From: a virus
Length of the DNA: 20,008 nt
IMG/VR virus record: IMGVR_UViG_3300034112_001658
Span: 1-20,008 of that record
Direction: 5' to 3' (one strand)
The translations under genes and the position numbers were made by a program. Numbering within the stretch: position 1 is the stretch's first letter; every line of letters starts with the position of its first letter. Below the pieces are notes generated by a model that searched no databases, was not told where the DNA came from, and saw only the letters and a program-made list of their open reading frames with translations. This document shows, piece after piece, positions 1-20,008 of this stretch.

Positions 1-509
1 ACGGCATGATCACACTCCTCACCATGCGGATGCACCGCCGCACCAGAGTGATGGTGATGCTCGCCGCCCTCGCCGGTCTCAGGGTGGGGGAGATCGCCAA
101 AGTCAAAGGCGAAGACCTCGACCTCGCAGGACGCAAAATCTATGTCATCGGGAAGGGCGCGAAGCGGGCGTGGGTTCCGCTGCACCCACTGCTCATCGAG
201 GTGGCCGCGCAGATGCCAGCCCGCGGCTGGTGGTTCCCCGGCAACATCCGCAGGCCCGGGGAACACATCCACCCCAAAAGCGTGTCCGACATCCTGGGGC
301 AAGCGATGCGCCGAGCCCGCGTCCAGGGGACACCGCACTCCCTGCGCCACTGGTACGCCTCCACCCTCCTCGATGATGGGGCGGACCTTAGGACGGTGCA
401 GGAGCTGCTGCGCCACACGTCCATCCAAACCACCCAGGTGTACACCAAAGTCAGGGACGAACGCCGGGTGTCAGCGGTGGACCGACTGGACCCATTCCGG
501 GCTGCGTAA
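1..509 (+). CDS. int: Tyrosine integrase, catalytic domain (5' end outside window)
   Basis: This is the C-terminal catalytic domain of a tyrosine site-specific recombinase, which would cut and join attP and attB during lysogeny. The frame is open to the left edge, so the N-terminal arm-binding and core-binding domains are missing from the window; the first Met at base 6 is probably internal. Counting from that Met, the full catalytic set is visible: Arg26 in GLRVGEI, Lys50 in the beta-hairpin (GKGAKR), His111-x-x-Arg114 in HSLRHWYAS, His137 in LLRHTS, and nucleophile Tyr146 in TTQVYTKV. It ends in TAA 13 bases before a tRNA-Lys gene and points toward the minus-strand structural genes. That is the arrangement expected for an L5-like phage, with attP at the convergence. 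The domain looks intact and active; subfamily is not assigned. Confidence 0.93.
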   Translation, partial: GMITLLTMRMHRRTRVMVMLAALAGLRVGEIAKVKGEDLDLAGRKIYVIGKGAKRAWVPLHPLLIEVAAQMPARGWWFPGNIRRPGEHIHPKSVSDILGQAMRRARVQGTPHSLRHWYASTLLDDGADLRTVQELLRHTSIQTTQVYTKVRDERRVSAVDRLDPFRAA

Positions 510-522
510 CTATGCTGTCGGA

Positions 523-595
523 GCCCCTATAGCTCAGTTGGTAGAGCTACGAGCTTTTAACTCGCAGGTCATCGGTTCGAGTCCGATTGGGGGCA
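523..595 (+). tRNA. tRNA-Lys (anticodon UUU)
   Basis: A full cloverleaf can be folded by eye. The 7-bp acceptor stem is 523-529 with 588-594 (one G-U). The D stem is GCTC/GAGC, the anticodon stem 549-553 with 561-565 has an A-C mismatch at its outer pair, the anticodon loop CTTTTAA gives UUU, and the T arm is ATCGG-TTCGAGT-CCGAT. The discriminator base is A at 595. Only CC follows, so the terminal CCA is not fully encoded. No promoter fits in the 13 bases after the integrase stop, so expression would need the integrase transcript or an upstream host promoter. Its 3' part overlaps the HNH gene on the other strand. Confidence 0.93.
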
Positions 596-597
596 CC
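549..597. other. Candidate attachment-site core within tRNA-Lys 3' half
   Basis: Tyrosine integrases of actinophages commonly use the 3' half of a tRNA gene as the crossover core; tRNA-Lys is a recalled target of some mycobacteriophages such as Tweety. Here a tRNA-Lys lies exactly between the convergent integrase and late genes, which is where attP lies in L5-like genomes. The core limits cannot be read from one copy; the range given spans the anticodon stem to the 3' end and is inferred. Unusually, the 5' half of the tRNA is also present on the integrase side. Confidence 0.4.
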
Positions 598-1189
598 GAT
601 CTGCTCGACGTGCCTCGGCCCGCTCGCGAGCTCCCTTGGCGCAGTTGCACCGGAAGCACATCGTCTGGACGTTCTCATAGCTATGCACACCACCGAGGAC
701 GAGCGCGACGATGTGGTCGAGGGTGGCGTAGTCCTTGGACGGCCACGCCTCGCGCTGGCACTTAATGCCGCACTGCTGACAGATGTAGTCGTCCCGGTCG
801 AACACCACCAACGGGTTGACATGCTCAACAAACGCGCTCAACTTCCGCGCACGCCGTGCATGGTTTGCCGCGCGGCCCGATCCCGACGCGCGGCGCGACT
901 CGCGGAAACGCTCTCGGTTCTCGCTAAACCATTGCGTTCGTTTCTGGCGGTAGTAGTCGGGATTGGATCGGTAATGTTCACGACTGGCCGCCCTACTGGC
1001 CTCCAGATTGTTTTGGTGATACTCCGCTTGATAGGCCAAGCGTTTGGCACGGTTCGCTCGGTAGTAATCGCGCTGGGCCTGGCGGCAGGCCGAGCACCGA
1101 CAACCACGAACGAAATAGTTCGCCAACTTCCCGCATTCGGCGTAGATATCGCCGCAATTCAGCTCGCTGCAGGGCGTAGCATCAGTCAT
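569..1189 (-). CDS. HNH endonuclease
   Basis: A 206-residue protein with a C-terminal HNH nuclease domain. Visible elements are C137-x2-C140, the catalytic D158-H159 pair (TLDHIVAL), N173, and C178-x2-C181 followed by N182, so both zinc-binding cysteine pairs and the metal-binding histidine are present. The N-terminal part has several cysteines (7, 12, 19, 30, 32, 35). A strongly basic helical stretch (about 38-120) with repeated Tyr/Asn/Arg spacing probably contacts DNA. The ATG at 1189 has a good ribosome site (TTAGGAG, about six bases upstream). The gene lies beyond the late-operon terminator and ends with TGA inside the tRNA-Lys T-arm region, so its last codons are antisense tRNA. It is probably a free-standing homing-type nuclease. 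A packaging role is less likely because it is far from the terminase end. Confidence 0.88.
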   Translation of the reverse strand: MTDATPCSELNCGDIYAECGKLANYFVRGCRCSACRQAQRDYYRANRAKRLAYQAEYHQNNLEASRAASREHYRSNPDYYRQKRTQWFSENRERFRESRRASGSGRAANHARRARKLSAFVEHVNPLVVFDRDDYICQQCGIKCQREAWPSKDYATLDHIVALVLGGVHSYENVQTMCFRCNCAKGARERAEARRADRCPQSDSNR

Positions 1190-2144: not shown

Positions 2145-3194
2145 CTACTTACTGTCGAACATGACGAATTGGGCTACCTTGCCGGATTGCAAAGCGTTAG
2201 CGTTGGCGAAGCCCAGCCCGGTGTACCGGTGGGTGGAACCGACAAACGAGATTTTGCTGCTGTCTATCGCTTCGAGGATCTGGGTGCTGCCCTCAAACAA
2301 CCTGAAGGTGTACGGTGCGTCCGCGACACCGCCCGTGCCTTTCACCCCGCACTGCAACGTGTAGGCGGCGGCCGGATTGAAATTGAACGTCGGTGCAGCC
2401 TTCAGGATCGTTTCAGTACCCCGGATGTTCACACCGATTTCCGCTGTCTTAGCACCCAACTTCGCGAAAACGAATGTGGCGGTTGTGTCGGTGCTACCCA
2501 TCTGGGCGACACGGCCCATGATGTAGTTGTAGGCGGTAGCGTTGAACAAACCTGTTTGCGGTTTAGACGCAAACACCGCACCGACACGCTGATAGTCGGT
2601 GCCGGTGTCCTCCGCAACATACTTGGCCCACCCGGAGCGGGTGGCCAGCGGGAAACAGAACAACCACATCTTGCCGTCTTTGATGGAAATGGTTTCCGCG
2701 GCTAAACCTTTATGCCACGTCACCCATTTCGACCCAGGCCCACCATCCGGGTATTGCCCGAAGTTTTCCGTTTCGCTGATCCCGTCACTGCCGCCGGCGA
2801 ACAGTGCGGCCACATCCGAGTTCAGGGTGGCGATAGCAGCCGCGATCTGCTCCATCGTGGCGTAGATGTCAAGGAAATCCCAGTCACCCTCAATCAACCC
2901 CTGCCAACCGTTCACAAGGTTGTTGATGACGTCTTTGAAGAACTTCAGCAGATCGGGTTTCTGCTTCAGGGCGCCCATGATGGTGGTGACCGCAGATGTT
3001 TCGGAGCCGAAATCCCCACCCACCACAGGCTCGAACTGCTTCAAAGCATCCAACGGCAACCTGAGCAGTTGGCGCTCAACATGTTCCAACGGGTTGTCCC
3101 ACGTCGGGGTCACCCCAACGATCTGATTCAGCAGGGTCTCGTTGACGTTCTGGCCCCAGTCCCCGCCGCCGATCACAAAAGACCGGTCAGTCAT
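2145..3194 (-). CDS. Minor tail protein (probable tail-tip / receptor-binding component)
   Basis: About 349 residues from MTDRSFVIGGGDWGQ. The N-terminal 140 residues are helical and resemble the attachment part of mycobacteriophage minor tail proteins (DNPLEHVERQLLRLPLDALK, then a segment with NLVNGWQGLIEGDWDFLD). The remainder is beta-rich and Gly/Thr-rich (KWVTWHKGLAAETISIKDGK, later GLFNATAYNYIMGRVAQM), like a lectin or jelly-roll-type C-terminal domain that may bind the cell envelope. Two adjacent ATGs exist (3197, 3194); 3194 has better spacing from GGGGAAG. The start overlaps the preceding stop. It corresponds by position to the minor tail genes after gp28 in L5-like phages. The receptor-binding role is inferred. 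Confidence 0.82.
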   Translation of the reverse strand: MTDRSFVIGGGDWGQNVNETLLNQIVGVTPTWDNPLEHVERQLLRLPLDALKQFEPVVGGDFGSETSAVTTIMGALKQKPDLLKFFKDVINNLVNGWQGLIEGDWDFLDIYATMEQIAAAIATLNSDVAALFAGGSDGISETENFGQYPDGGPGSKWVTWHKGLAAETISIKDGKMWLFCFPLATRSGWAKYVAEDTGTDYQRVGAVFASKPQTGLFNATAYNYIMGRVAQMGSTDTTATFVFAKLGAKTAEIGVNIRGTETILKAAPTFNFNPAAAYTLQCGVKGTGGVADAPYTFRLFEGSTQILEAIDSSKISFVGSTHRYTGLGFANANALQSGKVAQFVMFDSK

Positions 3195-3809: not shown

Positions 3810-5708
3810 CACAGCAACCCCAACTGGCTTCCGATGCTGCCCAGCTTCTGAATCTCCGACATGACACGGGTCATCGGGTCGGCGGGTTTGCGGTAACCCA
3901 GGCCGATCTGCCAACCCGAAGGGCCGTCCTTACCCCAACTGTATTTCGCCTTCTTGACTCGTTCCACGAAGATCGTGTCCGGGTCGGGGTAGCCCAGGAC
4001 GGTTGTGCCGACACGCGAACCAACCCACAGATGCCCGTACCCGTTGCGGCCGAACAGATACGGGGCCGCGTCACTGATTTGCAGGGTGTGCGCGGTGTGC
4101 GCCTGCGTCTCATACATGCGTTTCTTGATGGCCATAGCAGCCCCGAGGGTCCAGGCCTTCTCCGCATCTCCCCAGCCCTCGTAGTAGTGGAAGTCGCCCA
4201 AACTGGATTTGATGTTTTCCAGACCAGCGATAGGCAGACTGATACCCATTGCCCTAAGTGTTGGTACCTGCATGAATGCAAATGCGACATCGCGGTAGAA
4301 AATTTGGGCGATAGCGTCGAGCATGCCCCCCAGTGAAGGCATTTCGACGGGGATAGCACCAACAGGGGCACCGGAAGCTGCTTCCAACGCACTATTGATC
4401 AGCGACGAAATGATGTCCCCGCCGATATTCACCAGAGCCGACGCCGTCTCGTTAATGCCCGGGGCGCTGGACCCCCCGGTCAGGAAGGACGTGTCAGTGG
4501 CCTCGAAGTACTGGAACTCCGACGACTTGATACCGGTGTATTTGCCTTCCTGGAACACCACCCACGGCGCCTGCGGCGAAGTGCCGAAAAACATTGGGGT
4601 GTAATACTCCCCGGGGAACGTGGGATCCCCGGTGAAAACATCCACACCCTCGGTGTAACCATCAGACGTCAACTGGACGATGCCCCTCGTCAAACCAACC
4701 AGGATGGATCCGCCGAACGCCGTCTCGCGGCCCCACTCGTTGTTGTCCTCCACATCCCAGACGAGGCAACCCTGTTTCAACGGGATGGAGGTGTAGAGGT
4801 CTCGCAGCAGCTTTTGTTCACCCAGCAGATTCTCGAACGGGTGCGGGTCACGATCCGCCAGATACCGGCGGCACGTCAACGTCAAACCCGTGTCGTCCAA
4901 CACTTGTTTCGCCAGGTCGTAGAACGACCCGAACCGCGAAAACACAATCGTGATGGGGGTGTTGTCCCCCAACAGAGGGTAGGGCTTCACAATGTTGCGC
5001 CAGTTACCCGGCCAAAAAGACGGCCCCATCCACTCGTTGATATCCAAAGGGTCATCAGGCAAAGACCACAAAGACCCCTCAAGGCGGATGCACAGGTTCA
5101 CGAAAAGTGTTGTGAGCAGGCAAAAGCGGGCAGGCCCAAACATCACCCATAGCTTGGGAAATTGGAATTCGGGCCTTAAGAAGGGATTAGCTCAGTCAGG
5201 CTGCGTGGCCTGCGCCCCCCCGGTTGCCCAGGGGGGCGCAGACCCAGCAGCGGATATGTTTAACTTCCTCGAAGTCGTGCAGGAACGTCACATCAAGGTA
5301 GCAGTCCCCTGAGTCCTCTTTGACCACCCGGTAATCGGACATTCGGCCCGACCACCTGACGCCTTGCTTCTCGATTACCAGGTGGATGTTTCGTTTTTGG
5401 CGGCCTTTGTGGTTCATGATCCACTTAGCCAGGTAGTGATCTAAGCCGAGTTGGATTGAGGCGGTGCCGGTCTCGTTTTCGATTTCCTCGAAGTCGCCGG
5501 AGCGTTCGCCGGCCACCACACCGCGCAGCTGGTAGTCCCCGTCGTACAGTTCGACGACTGGTTTCTCCAGCCGCATCTTCTCCAACCATGCGCGGCGTTC
5601 CTGAACCTTCCCCCACAGGTTCTCGTGATCCGCCAGGCTCGACAAGCCGCCGGAAAGGTCAGCACGCTCCAAAACCGAATCCACGTTTGTCCTCCCACTC
5701 CCACTCAT
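3809..5708 (-). CDS. L5 gp28-like minor tail protein, split by a 52-base insertion
   Basis: This locus encodes a large minor tail protein of the L5 gp28 / Gp37-like type, a tail-tip component. The 5' part (5708-5196, 170 residues) starts MSGSGRTNVDSVLERADL after GGAGAG. It contains family-like segments (LVIEKQGVRWSGRMSDYRVV, FLHDFEEVKHI), then runs into stops. The 3' part continues in a frame shifted by one (NPFLRPEFQFPKLW, FGPARFC, WSLPDDPLDINEW, RRYLADRDP) to the stop at 3809. Removing 52 bases (5243-5192) restores one frame of about 615 residues, near the usual family length of roughly 600. The 3' part could start alone at GTG 5146 or ATG 5143, but I see no good ribosome site there. The gene is either a pseudogene, two split products, or expressed by bypass. 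Confidence 0.85.
5192..5243 (-). other. 52-base insertion with 17-bp GNRA-capped hairpin inside minor tail gene
   Basis: On the minus strand the codon TGG (5246-5244) is followed by 52 bases before GCT-AAT-CCC resumes family-like coding (ANPFL). The insert limits are uncertain by one base because G is repeated. From 5244 to 5207 it folds into one hairpin: GGTCTGCGCCCCCCTGG pairs with CCGGGGGGGCGCAGGCC (two G-U pairs) around a GCAA tetraloop. Then follow about 15 unpaired bases holding in-frame TGA at 5198-5196, TGA at 5194-5192 in the downstream frame, and TAA at 5189-5187 in the upstream frame. Simple +1 or -2 slippage inside the insert therefore cannot join the halves. Confidence 0.8.
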
Positions 5709-5865
5709 ACCGGCTCTCCGGGGAGAGCGGGTTGCCGTCACGTTCAAAGTTGTGTGCGCTGCCACCACCCGCGCCGGTAGCCTCTTCGGTTTCCTCGTAC
5801 TCCACTAGCTGCTCCACGGTGAGAGACACGACGGGGACACCGAACAGCCGCAGCACGTAACGCAT
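5659..5865 (-). CDS. Small conserved tail-region protein (68 aa)
   Basis: A 68-residue protein starting MRYVLRLFGVPVVSLTVEQL, with an N-terminal hydrophobic strand or short membrane-like segment. An acidic middle (EYEETEEATGAGGGS) and an aromatic/Gly tail (SRYEWEWEDKRGFGFGAC) follow. The start at 5865 forms an ATGA overlap with the stop of the upstream minor tail gene. Its 3' end overlaps the start of the gp28-like gene by about 50 bases in another frame. Short proteins with this MRYVLRLFGVPVVSL opening are, from memory, frequent in actinophage tail operons. Their function is not known to me. Confidence 0.72.
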   Translation of the reverse strand: MRYVLRLFGVPVVSLTVEQLVEYEETEEATGAGGGSAHNFERDGNPLSPESRYEWEWEDKRGFGFGAC

Positions 5866-7833: not shown

Positions 7834-10800
7834 TTATCTCCCAATAGTTGCTTGCATTTGCCGGTTCTGAAGGGTTCTTTGGCCGCTCAAAGCGTCATCC
7901 ATGTTCGCCACGTTGAACACGAAACTGGTTGCGTAGTCGAGCCCTTGCTGCATCAGCGACGGGATAGCGCCCTGCCCGGACCAACCCAGGTCGGACAGGA
8001 ACTGGTTTCCGTTTGCGGTGGCGAAGTCCAACGGCATCTTCTGGAGGCTCTTGATCTGATCCTGGTAGCCCTGCGACGTGGATGACATTTGCCCGCCGTA
8101 CTTCTGGGCGTAGGCCAGTTGGTCGCGCTGCAACTCGAGCGCGGTTTTCTGGTTGCGGATCTGCTCAAGCTGCGCCTTGATAGCGGCCTTGTCCGCGTTC
8201 GGTGCTCCCTTCGCCAACTCGGCCTGCTTGCGGGCGATCGCCAACTCAGCGAGACGCTGCGTCAACTCCGCAACCTGCTGCTTGGACTCCGACGTGCTCA
8301 ACGGGGCCAGAGACGCCGCAGCGCCGTCCATTGACTGCCGGAAATCCTGCGCCGGAACCGCCAACGCCGAAACCTGACTTTGCAGCCCCGACAAGCCGCC
8401 GCTGAACTGGTTCACCGAACTCGTCGCCTCACCGAGGTTGAAGTTGAACACCACACCCTCGGCGTTACCGAACACATCTTTGACTTGCTGCATCATCAGG
8501 CGGGCGATCCCCACCACTTCACCCACAGCGCCCTTGATTCCGCCGGCGAACCCGGTACCGATGGCTTCACCGGACCTATCCACCCAGCCCGACCCGGCGA
8601 ACGGCCCCTTGTCGGCCGGGGAGTTCGGGAAGAACTGCCTCGCCGCAGCCATCAACGATTGGGCGGCCGCGGCCACCGCACCCGACTGCGAAGAAATGCC
8701 GCCCGCGAATTCCCGGCCCACAGCCTCACCGGAAGCCCGGGCAGACGCCGACAAACTCTGCAACGCCGAGGTGATCTGACCCGACCAGCCCTGCACCGCT
8801 GCCACGGCCTGGGAACCGCCGTTGGTGACTGCCGACACCAGATCGTTCATGGCGGTCTGCGCCGAAGTCACTAAGCCGGTGAACGAAGTTTGCGCCAAAG
8901 TTGGTAACTGGCCGATGGAAGCTTGGAATGCGGTGGTGATCTGCGAGCCCGCCGCCCCGACCGCCGAAACGGCCTGACCCAACGCCCCGGTGATCACCGC
9001 GGGAATCTGGTTGAACGCCTGCTGCACCGCGTTGGTGATGTTCCCGGCCTGCTGACCGATGGACAACACCATGAACCCGAACGCCCCGGTGATGCTGGTT
9101 TGCACACCCTGGAACGCTGTGGTGGCCGTCAACGGCAGCTGCTGGAACGCCGTGGAGATAGCGGTGTTCAACTGGGTCACACCCGCTGTCACGGTCTGCT
9201 GGATGACACCCCACGCCCCGGTGATCGCCGGCGCCAACGCGCCGAACGCCTGCCCCACCTTCGCGGGCAGCGTCGACAGCGGCAGCACCGCCTGGTCGAT
9301 GCCCTGCTGCAACACCGGGCCGAGCTGGGTGACCGCGGCTTGGGCCTCAGTGATCACCCCGGTCATCTGGGTTCCGATTTGCGCCTTCACCGCGTCGGTG
9401 ACCCCGGTGCCGGTGAACGCCGACTTCAACGCCTCAGCCTGGGCCTGTTTCGACACATTCACCGCGGCCGACAACTGGTTGTTGATCGCCTCGGTTAAAC
9501 CCGCACCACCGTCGGTGGCAGTTGACGCCGTCGCGGACAGGTTCTGCTGGAACTGCCTGGCCGCCTCACTGCCAGCCTCGGCAGCAGCTTTCGGGGCCTC
9601 ACCGAAGAACTGCCGGAACGGGGCCTTATCACCCAGAACCCCGTCCTTGCCGAACAACCCGAGGAACCCCTCGGTCTGCTTCTGGCTGGTGTCCAAATCC
9701 TGCTTAGCGCCGGTGATCCGCTCAAAGGTTGCCGCGACATCCTTGATCTTGTCGATCGTGTCGACGATGCCGCTGATGATGGTGGCCACATCCTCGAAGC
9801 CGCTTTTCAGCAGCGGCAGGATGTCGTTGACGATCGACCGCAGATCGGCGGCGAAGTCTTTCATCTTCTGCCCGAAAGCAGGATCGGACAGGTTGTCGAA
9901 ACTCCACGCCGCGATGTCCTTGATCGTGCCGCCGATCTCCCCCAACACCGCTTTGAGGTTCTGCATCGCCGAATCGAGTTGCCCGTTGGCGGTGATCTTG
10001 TCCACCCAGGTGGAGAACTCGTTGCCGATCCGGCTGAACGAATCAGCGAGACCGTTGAGGAAGCTGCCCGACAACCCTCTGGTGAGGTTGAGCAGCCCGT
10101 TGGTGAACGCCTGGAATCCCGGTGTCGCCCTGGTGATCGCCGAACTGATGTTGTCGATGATGGTGCGGACGCTTTCCAGGCCCGCGCCGCTGGTGACAAC
10201 ATCGACCACACCACCGAAAGCGTTTGACAGGACCGTGGCGACGTTGGCCAGCTGCCCTTGGATTTTCGGGATGAACTCGCCGACCTTACGGAACGGTTCC
10301 TGCAAACCCTTCTCGAAGGCGCCGCTGACAGCGGTCTTCAGATTGTCGAAGGCCGGTTTGACAGCCTCGGCTGCCTTAGCGATGCCATCCATGCCCAACG
10401 CCAACACCGACGCCGGAACCACCGCGGCGGCCAACAGGCCGGGCAAAGCGACAAGCGCACCAGTGGCCAAAGACAAAGCTGGGGCCGCTAACGCCACGAC
10501 CGCGGCGGCTATCGCCCCGGCCTCACCGAACTTCGCCATCGAGTTCGCGGTGTTTGAGAAACCCTTGGAAAGCCCGGACAGCGACGACGACACCCGGTTG
10601 AATCCACGCAACGCTGTCGCACCGAAACCAGCCGTCGCGGTGGTGAACGCCGCGGAAAACCTGACCAACGATCTACGCACACTGTTGTTGTCGACGTCGA
10701 CTTCCACCGGAACCTTCACCGCTTGGCCGCGCAAACCACGCGCAAACCCCGCCAGGAAAGACCTCACCCGGGTTTGGTCGGCCTCCGGCTCAACCGGAAC

Positions 10801-19328: not shown

Positions 19329-20008
19329 TTACGCGCCGATCACGTCCTCAACGGCGGGTTTGGGTTTCGGTTCGGAATACATGCCGGCCAACTGGCCCAA
19401 AGGGTTCTCCTCGGCGTCCCAGGCCCGCATCTCCTCACGCTCAGCAATGGAGTACCCGAGGTCGATACGTGCTCTCTCTTTGCCGATCACACCCGCACCG
19501 TTGGCGTACAACTTCGTCACCGCATCGGCTTTCGCCGCATAAGTAGGTGTTGAGGGGTCACGCCACACCGACTCCAGGCGGAACATCTCCGGTGGGGCGT
19601 CCTGCCCCTTGGCGACCTTGTAGGCGATCCGCATGGCCTGTTCCCACGCCCCACCGAACAGCTTGTTCTTGCGCTCCACCTTCTTCACCAACCGGCTCTC
19701 GCTGGACTTGATCGCTTCAGCAGAAGCCGGATTATCCGAAGAGAAACTCAAGTATTGAGGCGGTAAACCTGTGTACGCGGCCGCTTTCCTATCCAAAGCG
19801 TCAAGGGCGTCAACAAAGTTGCGTAGCTCCGCGGCGGAGAACTGGGTGGCGTTCGCATCAGGATCCTCAAACGCCAAAATGCGTGCCATATAGGCGTCGA
19901 ACAGCGCCTTACCCGTCTCCGGGTCCACCCCCAAATCCTCCGGCTTCACCCCGAAAATCAGACGCTGCGGGATGGCCATCAGTTCCGCCGTCCCTTGGAG
20001 ATCCATCA
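19329..20008 (-). CDS. Portal protein, C-terminal half (5' end outside window)
   Basis: About 226 residues of the portal protein, which forms the dodecameric DNA channel at one capsid vertex. The frame is open at the right edge, so the N-terminal half is not seen; the Met at 20006 is internal. Family-like segments are AAYTGLPPQYLSFSSDNPAS, AEAIKSSESRLVKKVERKNK and GGAWEQAMRIAYKV, which correspond to the crown/wing helices of SPP1-type portals. The C-terminus (YSIAEREEMRAWDAEENP) resembles L5 gp14 as recalled. It ends in TAA just before the MuF-like gene. The terminase and lysis genes would be expected further right, outside the window. Confidence 0.92.
   Translation of the reverse strand, partial: MDLQGTAELMAIPQRLIFGVKPEDLGVDPETGKALFDAYMARILAFEDPDANATQFSAAELRNFVDALDALDRKAAAYTGLPPQYLSFSSDNPASAEAIKSSESRLVKKVERKNKLFGGAWEQAMRIAYKVAKGQDAPPEMFRLESVWRDPSTPTYAAKADAVTKLYANGAGVIGKERARIDLGYSIAEREEMRAWDAEENPLGQLAGMYSEPKPKPAVEDVIGA

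Follow-up and report, generated by a model that had tools for sequence, protein, structure and literature searches.

Programmed translational bypassing is, according to a 2016 review, established in one phage gene, gene 60 of T4, and in yeast mitochondria. On T4 gene 60, ribosomes skip 50 nucleotides (nt) between matched GGA codons at a take-off stem-loop partly made of upstream sequence, and structures folding behind the ribosome drive it forward (PMC11194080, PMC5009743); in the T4 sequence, a UAG stop directly follows the GGA take-off codon. The literature ties this gap to a homing-endonuclease event (PMC5009743, PMC11194080). The mitochondrial byps of Magnusiomyces capitatus are many frame-disrupting inserts neutralized at translation, several with imperfectly matched landing codons (PMC5009743), and a likely bypass, related to a UUA codon and with a much shorter gap, has been proposed for the terminase of Streptomyces phage Hau3 (PMC5009743). 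Because so few cases are established, the minimal needs of bypassing and the origins of its gaps are hard to study. Here we describe a hairpin-forming insert of 52 nt in the baseplate-hub gene of an uncultured phage, over which ribosomes probably jump. The insert lies in a stretch of 20,008 nt, positions 1 to 20,008 of IMG/VR virus record IMGVR_UViG_3300034112_001658, which we refer to as the window.

An earlier sequence-only reading of the window had noticed a 52-base insert splitting an L5 gp28-like tail gene into out-of-frame halves and had suggested either a bypass gap or a small mobile insert. Both halves match the profiles PF14594 and phrog_110, and each profile runs on across the gap (from position 98 to 101 in Pfam and from 168 to 170 in PHROGs). 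The C-terminal half also matches residues 142–600 of Protein Data Bank (PDB) entry 9d93, a baseplate hub gp25 (E 1.9e-189), which we take to be a mycobacteriophage Bxb1 entry. By this homology, the interrupted gene is a baseplate-hub gene of the Bxb1 gp25 family. From general knowledge of tail tips, a virion would therefore not be expected to work without it. The predicted structure of the hub was of low quality except in the N-terminal domain (mean predicted local distance difference test score of 52), and the model was used solely to place the boundary of that domain. The parts of the gene are as follows.

5247–5768, minus strand: N-terminal segment of the hub gene (PF14594 profile positions 2–98, phrog_110 27–168), with the start as listed for the open reading frame (ORF); the true start may be further downstream.
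5192–5243, minus strand: insert of 52 nt relative to the empty site of uninterrupted relatives, with a 53-nt version in the divergent phage G002.
3809–5191, minus strand: C-terminal segment of the hub gene, in a different frame and with 460 codons before its stop (PF14594 positions 101–370; PDB 9d93).

Close IMG/VR relatives and 80 loci, insert-bearing contigs excepted, read HIRVW- or HILCW-ANPFLRPEF in a single frame without a gap (HIRVWANPFLRPEF in the close relatives), which sets the size of the insert at 52 nt. The flanks thus lead, in related phages, to an empty site lacking exactly this segment, and the split into out-of-frame halves is borne out. In the window, the upstream frame runs on the minus strand through ...HDFEEVKHIRCW VCAPLGNRGGAGHAA to the TGA at 5198–5196 and so ends ...KHIRCWVCAPLGNRGGAGHAA-TGA, and the downstream frame has a TGA (5194–5192) followed by GCT AAT CCC TTC, reading ANPFLRPEFQF. 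A second metagenome contig (G001, locus L003), 97–99% identical to the window, carries the same insert unchanged. G002 (locus L014, also L104/L105), which has about 79% identity to the window in the N-terminal part and 86% at the start of the C-terminal part, has the 53-nt version at the same codon, with an identical hairpin core and one extra T in the tail. Because the insert recurs in these two contigs, it is not an assembly slip, and its two lengths mean that the required frame shift differs between the window phage and G002.

Almost all of the insert folds into one hairpin, composed of a 17-base-pair (bp) upper stem, a GCAA loop and a 5-bp lower stem (GCUGC:GCAGC). Its minimum free energy is −52.1 kcal/mol (z = −6.5; 0 of 200 shuffles equally stable), and it is the most stable 70-nt fold of the whole window. 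The 17-bp stem and its GCAA cap agree with the sequence-only reading, which had however given 5192–5243 for the hairpin insertion; the structure reaches upstream of 5243, because the native codons CGC TGC supply the 5' side of the lower stem. Other strong hairpins of the contigs were set aside, as they resemble a terminator or codon-biased coding sequence, and an Rfam scan at the gathering threshold returned no match for the hairpin, with a tRNA as the only match. The elements of the insert are listed in minus-strand order.

5247–5251, minus strand: 5' side of the lower stem (GCTGC), within the native codons CGC TGC (Arg-Cys).
5228–5244, minus strand: 5' arm of the upper stem, GGTCTGCGCCCCCCTGG, of which the GGTCTGCGCC part is common to all family members.
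5224–5227, minus strand: GCAA (GNRA) tetraloop; GAAA or UAAC in other members.
5207–5223, minus strand: 3' arm of the upper stem, CCGGGGGGGCGCAGGCC.
5200–5204, minus strand: 3' side of the lower stem (GCAGC), the site-specific tail of the element.
5196–5198, minus strand: TGA ending the upstream frame, directly after GCC 5201–5199.
5192–5194, minus strand: TGA of the downstream frame, directly before the proposed landing codon.

The hairpin belongs to a small family. Five distinct sequences carry it in homologous hub genes: the window (and G001), G002, L126 (and L130), G013 (loci L276/L279) and G022 (locus L361). L126/L130 were found by a relaxed stem-arm pattern, G013 by homology search and G022 by a second relaxed pattern. 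The elements occupy two sites, with lengths of 52 and 53 nt at site 1 (window and G002) and of 59, 56 and 56 nt at site 2 (L126, G013 and G022), which lies between GGHSMPGV and NEAISA of the hub gene and has exact empty sites in relatives. All five share the stem arms GGUCUGCGCC...GGCGCRGGCC and a stable tetraloop, although the apex of the L126/L130 hairpin differs from that of the window. The lower stem is built at each site from native upstream codons and a fitting, site-specific tail (GCUGC:GCAGC at site 1 versus GAUGCC-GG:CCGGCAUC at site 2), and the 3' end of the element reads AGC-N-AAY in all five. Across the five elements, 95% of stem cells are paired, four pairs have changed on both sides and the covariation score is greater than those of all 500 shuffles. 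This covariation support is good but not overwhelming, because five sequences are few and some are possibly related by descent. The loops are GCAA and GAAA, which are GNRA tetraloops, and UAAC, which is of the UMAC type; these stable tetraloops all lie on the coding strand, which points to a role of the hairpin as RNA.

The distribution of the element does not follow the hub gene. In a tree of the C-terminal half, uninterrupted relatives separate the window from G002, with a single change in 0% of bootstrap trees, and L126 and G013 are likewise apart with uninterrupted relatives between them (one origin in 0% of bootstrap trees). G013 and G022 are not firmly sisters in a vertical-descent test and may represent one acquisition or two. 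Because its presence conflicts with the hub gene tree, the hairpin is, by this discordance and by its exact empty sites, a mobile intervening element. A conservative lineage count gives at least three acquisitions, with one followed by losses, or two, at site 1 and two at site 2. Searching IMG/VR and about 85,000 species genomes turned up related hairpins in hub genes of other uncultured phages and no full hairpin with these arms outside hub genes, with only chance matches in the species genomes; cultured-phage and plasmid collections yielded no clear copy. A host repetitive extragenic palindromic (REP)-like repeat was rejected as a source, as 23 matches in the genome-contig scan looked like chance hairpins in unrelated sequence.

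The interrupted genes show constraint similar to that of intact ones. Between the window and G001 there are four differences in 348 downstream codons, all of them synonymous, and none upstream. Changes private to the window in the C-terminal half (53 synonymous, 14 nonsynonymous) are within the range of uninterrupted relatives. For G013 and G022, which have in common a hairpin at site 2 and a minor break close to site 1, the ratio of nonsynonymous to synonymous substitution rates (dN/dS) is 0.30, 0.11 and 0.08 in three segments, the last two being those after site 1 and after site 2; uninterrupted pairs give 0.12–0.14 over whole genes. The first 25 codons after each break, which come before any conserved start codon, have synonymous to nonsynonymous counts of 12:3 and 10:6. 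Judged from these substitutions, the hub segments are under ordinary purifying selection. The constraint in G013 and G022 is compatible with continuous translation and would be proof of it only if the inserts predate the divergence of the two. In the comparisons made, the hub was the sole broken gene seen in the window, G002 (44 kb), G013 (41 kb) and L130; flagged out-of-frame ORFs were judged to be shadows.

How, then, might the two halves be joined? At site 1, the frames of the window and G002 do not overlap, as a TGA ends the upstream frame and another TGA precedes the downstream frame. Because of this, and because the shift needed differs (52 versus 53 nt), programmed frameshifting on overlapping codons is excluded at site 1, and plain slippage is unworkable, as the sequence-only reading had held. 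The frames do overlap in G013 and G022 and at an A-run in L126. Taken by itself, site 2 leaves room for ordinary frameshifting, since slipping back by one base on the stem's C-run would likewise bring the ribosome into the downstream frame of G013 and G022. Two further candidates failed: with TGA reassigned to Trp, the frame still meets a TAA (read by eye), and a search for a helper tRNA gave only a tRNA-Lys in the window and G002, besides an odd call at the edge of a G002 contig. That call, made by ARAGORN at the contig start (L104 16–100), has a four-base anticodon (cgag) and may be spurious.

We listed all synonymous take-off and landing pairs for the five sequences. The sole pair available in all five leads from an Ala GCC in the 5' arm of the hairpin to an Ala GCN before the native AAY codon, with skips of 46, 47, 50, 47 and 47 nt (46 in the window). 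It was absent from the candidates of the sequence-only reading, which had considered a take-off on Trp TGG. A jump from UGG with landing on UGA is possible at site 1 and is not general, because site 2 has no Trp codon. The proposed codons in the window are as follows.

5235–5237, minus strand: putative take-off codon, Ala GCC, with the phase GTC TGC GCC in five of five sequences.
5189–5191, minus strand: putative landing codon, Ala GCT, with the native AAT at which the gene resumes directly after it; GCN-AAY in five of five sequences.

The reading that we favour, and hold to be slightly more likely than not on the evidence above, is that a mobile element in the baseplate-hub gene is neutralized by translational bypass. 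More tentatively, a mobile RNA-hairpin family may spread via one essential structural gene, each copy programming a ribosome jump that takes off within its stem and lands at its end, on Ala codons in both places, with the outer stem rebuilt from target codons at each site. The ribosome would translate into the 5' arm up to the Ala GCC, where the peptidyl-tRNA-Ala would detach; the mRNA would slide by about 46–50 nt while the hairpin, including the lower stem with its native upstream codons, folds behind the ribosome, as suggested by analogy with T4 gene 60; and the tRNA would re-pair on the Ala GCN that immediately precedes the native AAY codon. This would yield a hub protein with a V-C-A linker (HIRCW-VCA-NPFL at site 1 and MPGV-VCA-NEAI at site 2). 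In the window, a 46-nt bypass predicts the junction peptide HIRCWVCANPFL, and a 52-nt skip or RNA removal predicts HIRCWANPFL. Four points of this account are inferred: that bypass takes place, which codon pair it uses, the sliding, and how the element moves. The gap of about 50 nt is absent from uninterrupted homologues and coding on both flanks, and the hairpin, whose 5' arm holds the putative take-off codon, would serve as the take-off stem-loop. The proposed GCC is followed by CCC or CTC rather than by a stop. Only in G022 does a UAG follow, two codons on, and read-through of the hairpin in that frame is thus impossible there.

Several observations weigh against this reading. The landing is imperfect at site 2, where GCC to GCG is synonymous only, whereas GCC to GCT or GCC is cognate at site 1. 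No Shine-Dalgarno-like landing aid was identified, and neither was a nascent-peptide signal, although no search for a functional equivalent of the KKYK-type signal was made. In L126, G013 and G022 alike the frame is broken again close to site 1, which might be a mark of gene decay. The dN/dS argument would hold only if the inserts are old enough for it, and G013 and G022 are not firmly sisters. Finally, the support is sequence evidence from uncultured phages, and cultured-phage collections yielded no phage with the insert.

The family resembles T4 gene 60 in being a phage gene with a gap of about 50 nt, stops within the gap and a stable-tetraloop hairpin at take-off formed partly from upstream coding sequence. 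It differs in having no sequence relationship to T4, in its Ala rather than Gly codons, in a stem of 17–19 bp plus lower stem in place of a short hairpin, and in lacking a stop directly after the proposed take-off (in G022 it comes two codons later). It also occurs in several copies at two sites of an actinophage-type structural gene. With the byps it shares frame disruption and, as in several byps cases, imperfectly matched landing codons; byps, however, belong to fungal mitochondria, whereas the phage inserts are seen in one gene, with conserved stem arms and a lower stem fitted to each site. Hau3 terminase is likewise an actinobacterial phage gene with a proposed bypass, but there the gap is much shorter and UUA-related, and here it is a hairpin insert. 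Like mini-inteins and phage introns, the element targets conserved residues of an essential gene, and an intein-like insert occurs in the same hub gene (L275, described below), but the hairpin is far too small for self-splicing and encodes no protein. Of the readings considered, that of a bypass gap or mobile insert is the best supported; it now extends from a single locus to a small family at two hub-gene sites, and the take-off codon proposed for it has changed.

For the window itself, the strongest competitor, although we consider it unlikely, also invokes an Ala codon. The hairpin would be read into the protein as 15 extra residues; on reaching GCC-UGA, the tRNA-Ala would then hop 10 nt (11 in G002) to GCU or GCC, and the hairpin would assist by refolding behind the ribosome, in the manner of the 5' stem-loop of T4. 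This is the hop from GCC 5201–5199 to GCT 5191–5189 that the sequence-only reading had raised, and at site 1 it is a live alternative: the pairs there are fully cognate (GCC-TGACTGA-GCT and GCC-TGACTTGA-GCC), and the first two bases of the take-off codon are shared with the lower stem. An independent, hairpin-less site in the hub genes of G013 (L276/L279) and G022 (L361) has the same layout, CTT-TGAATGA-CTC after NPFL, with two stops between synonymous Leu codons and a potential Leu-to-Leu hop; a stretch of about 30 nt surrounding it is the same in both contigs despite strongly diverged synonymous sites. Site 2 does not fit, however, as the UAG inside the 5' arm of G022 blocks translation of the hairpin in that frame and other slips would be needed in G013 and L126; the 15-residue peptide would, moreover, stay in the hub. 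The short hop predicts the peptides ...VCAPLGNR and GGAGHAANPFLRPEF from the hairpin and the junction HIRCWVCAPLGNRGGAGHAANPFL, and the peptide HIRCWVCANPFLRPEF would contradict it.

It is quite unlikely that the hairpin is simply a small insertion element that has inactivated the hub in dying phages or prophages. All carriers are metagenome contigs, and the two breaks in the hub genes of L126, G013 and G022 are what such decay might produce. Against this, damage is confined to the hub in the window, the 44-kb G002 and the 41-kb G013, insertion has struck the same sites in separate lineages without loss of any flanking residue, constraint resembles that of intact genes, and no copies occur outside hub genes in the viral scans, with chance matches only in the roughly 85,000 genomes.

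We regard as very unlikely a split hub, in which N- and C-terminal parts are made separately by termination and re-initiation and then assemble, an insert at a domain boundary being tolerated. Site 1 does lie just past the compact N-terminal domain in the low-confidence model, and in L126 a five-nt insert, TAGTG, after HDYEHL (approximately 8238–8250) produces overlapping stop and start codons at the boundary of the N-terminal domain. Yet in the window, G002 and G013 the nearest start codon lies too far past the stop (in the window, the first GTG comes after 14 conserved residues), and start codons do not occupy conserved positions. What would be left untranslated is itself conserved, as the 12:3 and 10:6 counts between G013 and G022 attest, and the conserved RNA hairpin and site 2 would go unexplained. 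Excision of the 52 nt from RNA or DNA before translation is highly improbable: the insertion is precise and costs no codons, as with introns, but the element is too small for any known self-splicing intron, has no Rfam match and shows neither a bulge-helix-bulge nor flanking direct repeats.

If bypass of the hairpin is correct, bypassing would become open to comparative study through at least five natural sequences, which occupy two sites of one gene and have covarying stems and one codon pair in common, and the family would supply ready-made reporters. It would also mean that intervening elements can spread among phages even when they are very small and encode no protein.

A possible partner in the mobility of the hairpin is encoded in the window.

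569–1189, minus strand: HNH endonuclease gene with a Cys-rich N-terminal repeat (PF01844, E 7.7e-11), absent from the uninterrupted relatives compared.

The HNH genes of the window and G002 lie in different places and are only partly similar; no convincing homologue was found in G013 and none in L126/L130. In G002, an ORF at 19594–20544 (L104 19594 to L105 544) has four similar Cys-rich repeats and an HNH-like C-terminus, and it is flanked by the tape measure gene and the tail gene that comes next. The hub gene of L275, a close relative of G013, contains an in-frame intein-like insert (approximately locus positions 2735–3192; PF14890, E 5e-11) between GVNEVISA and SIQAVGDI, about seven residues from site 2, so this conserved hub stretch is a target of intervening elements. 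At one end of the window, a tyrosine integrase fragment (6–597, plus strand) adjoins a tRNA-Lys(ttt) gene, which suggests a temperate phage or a prophage end.
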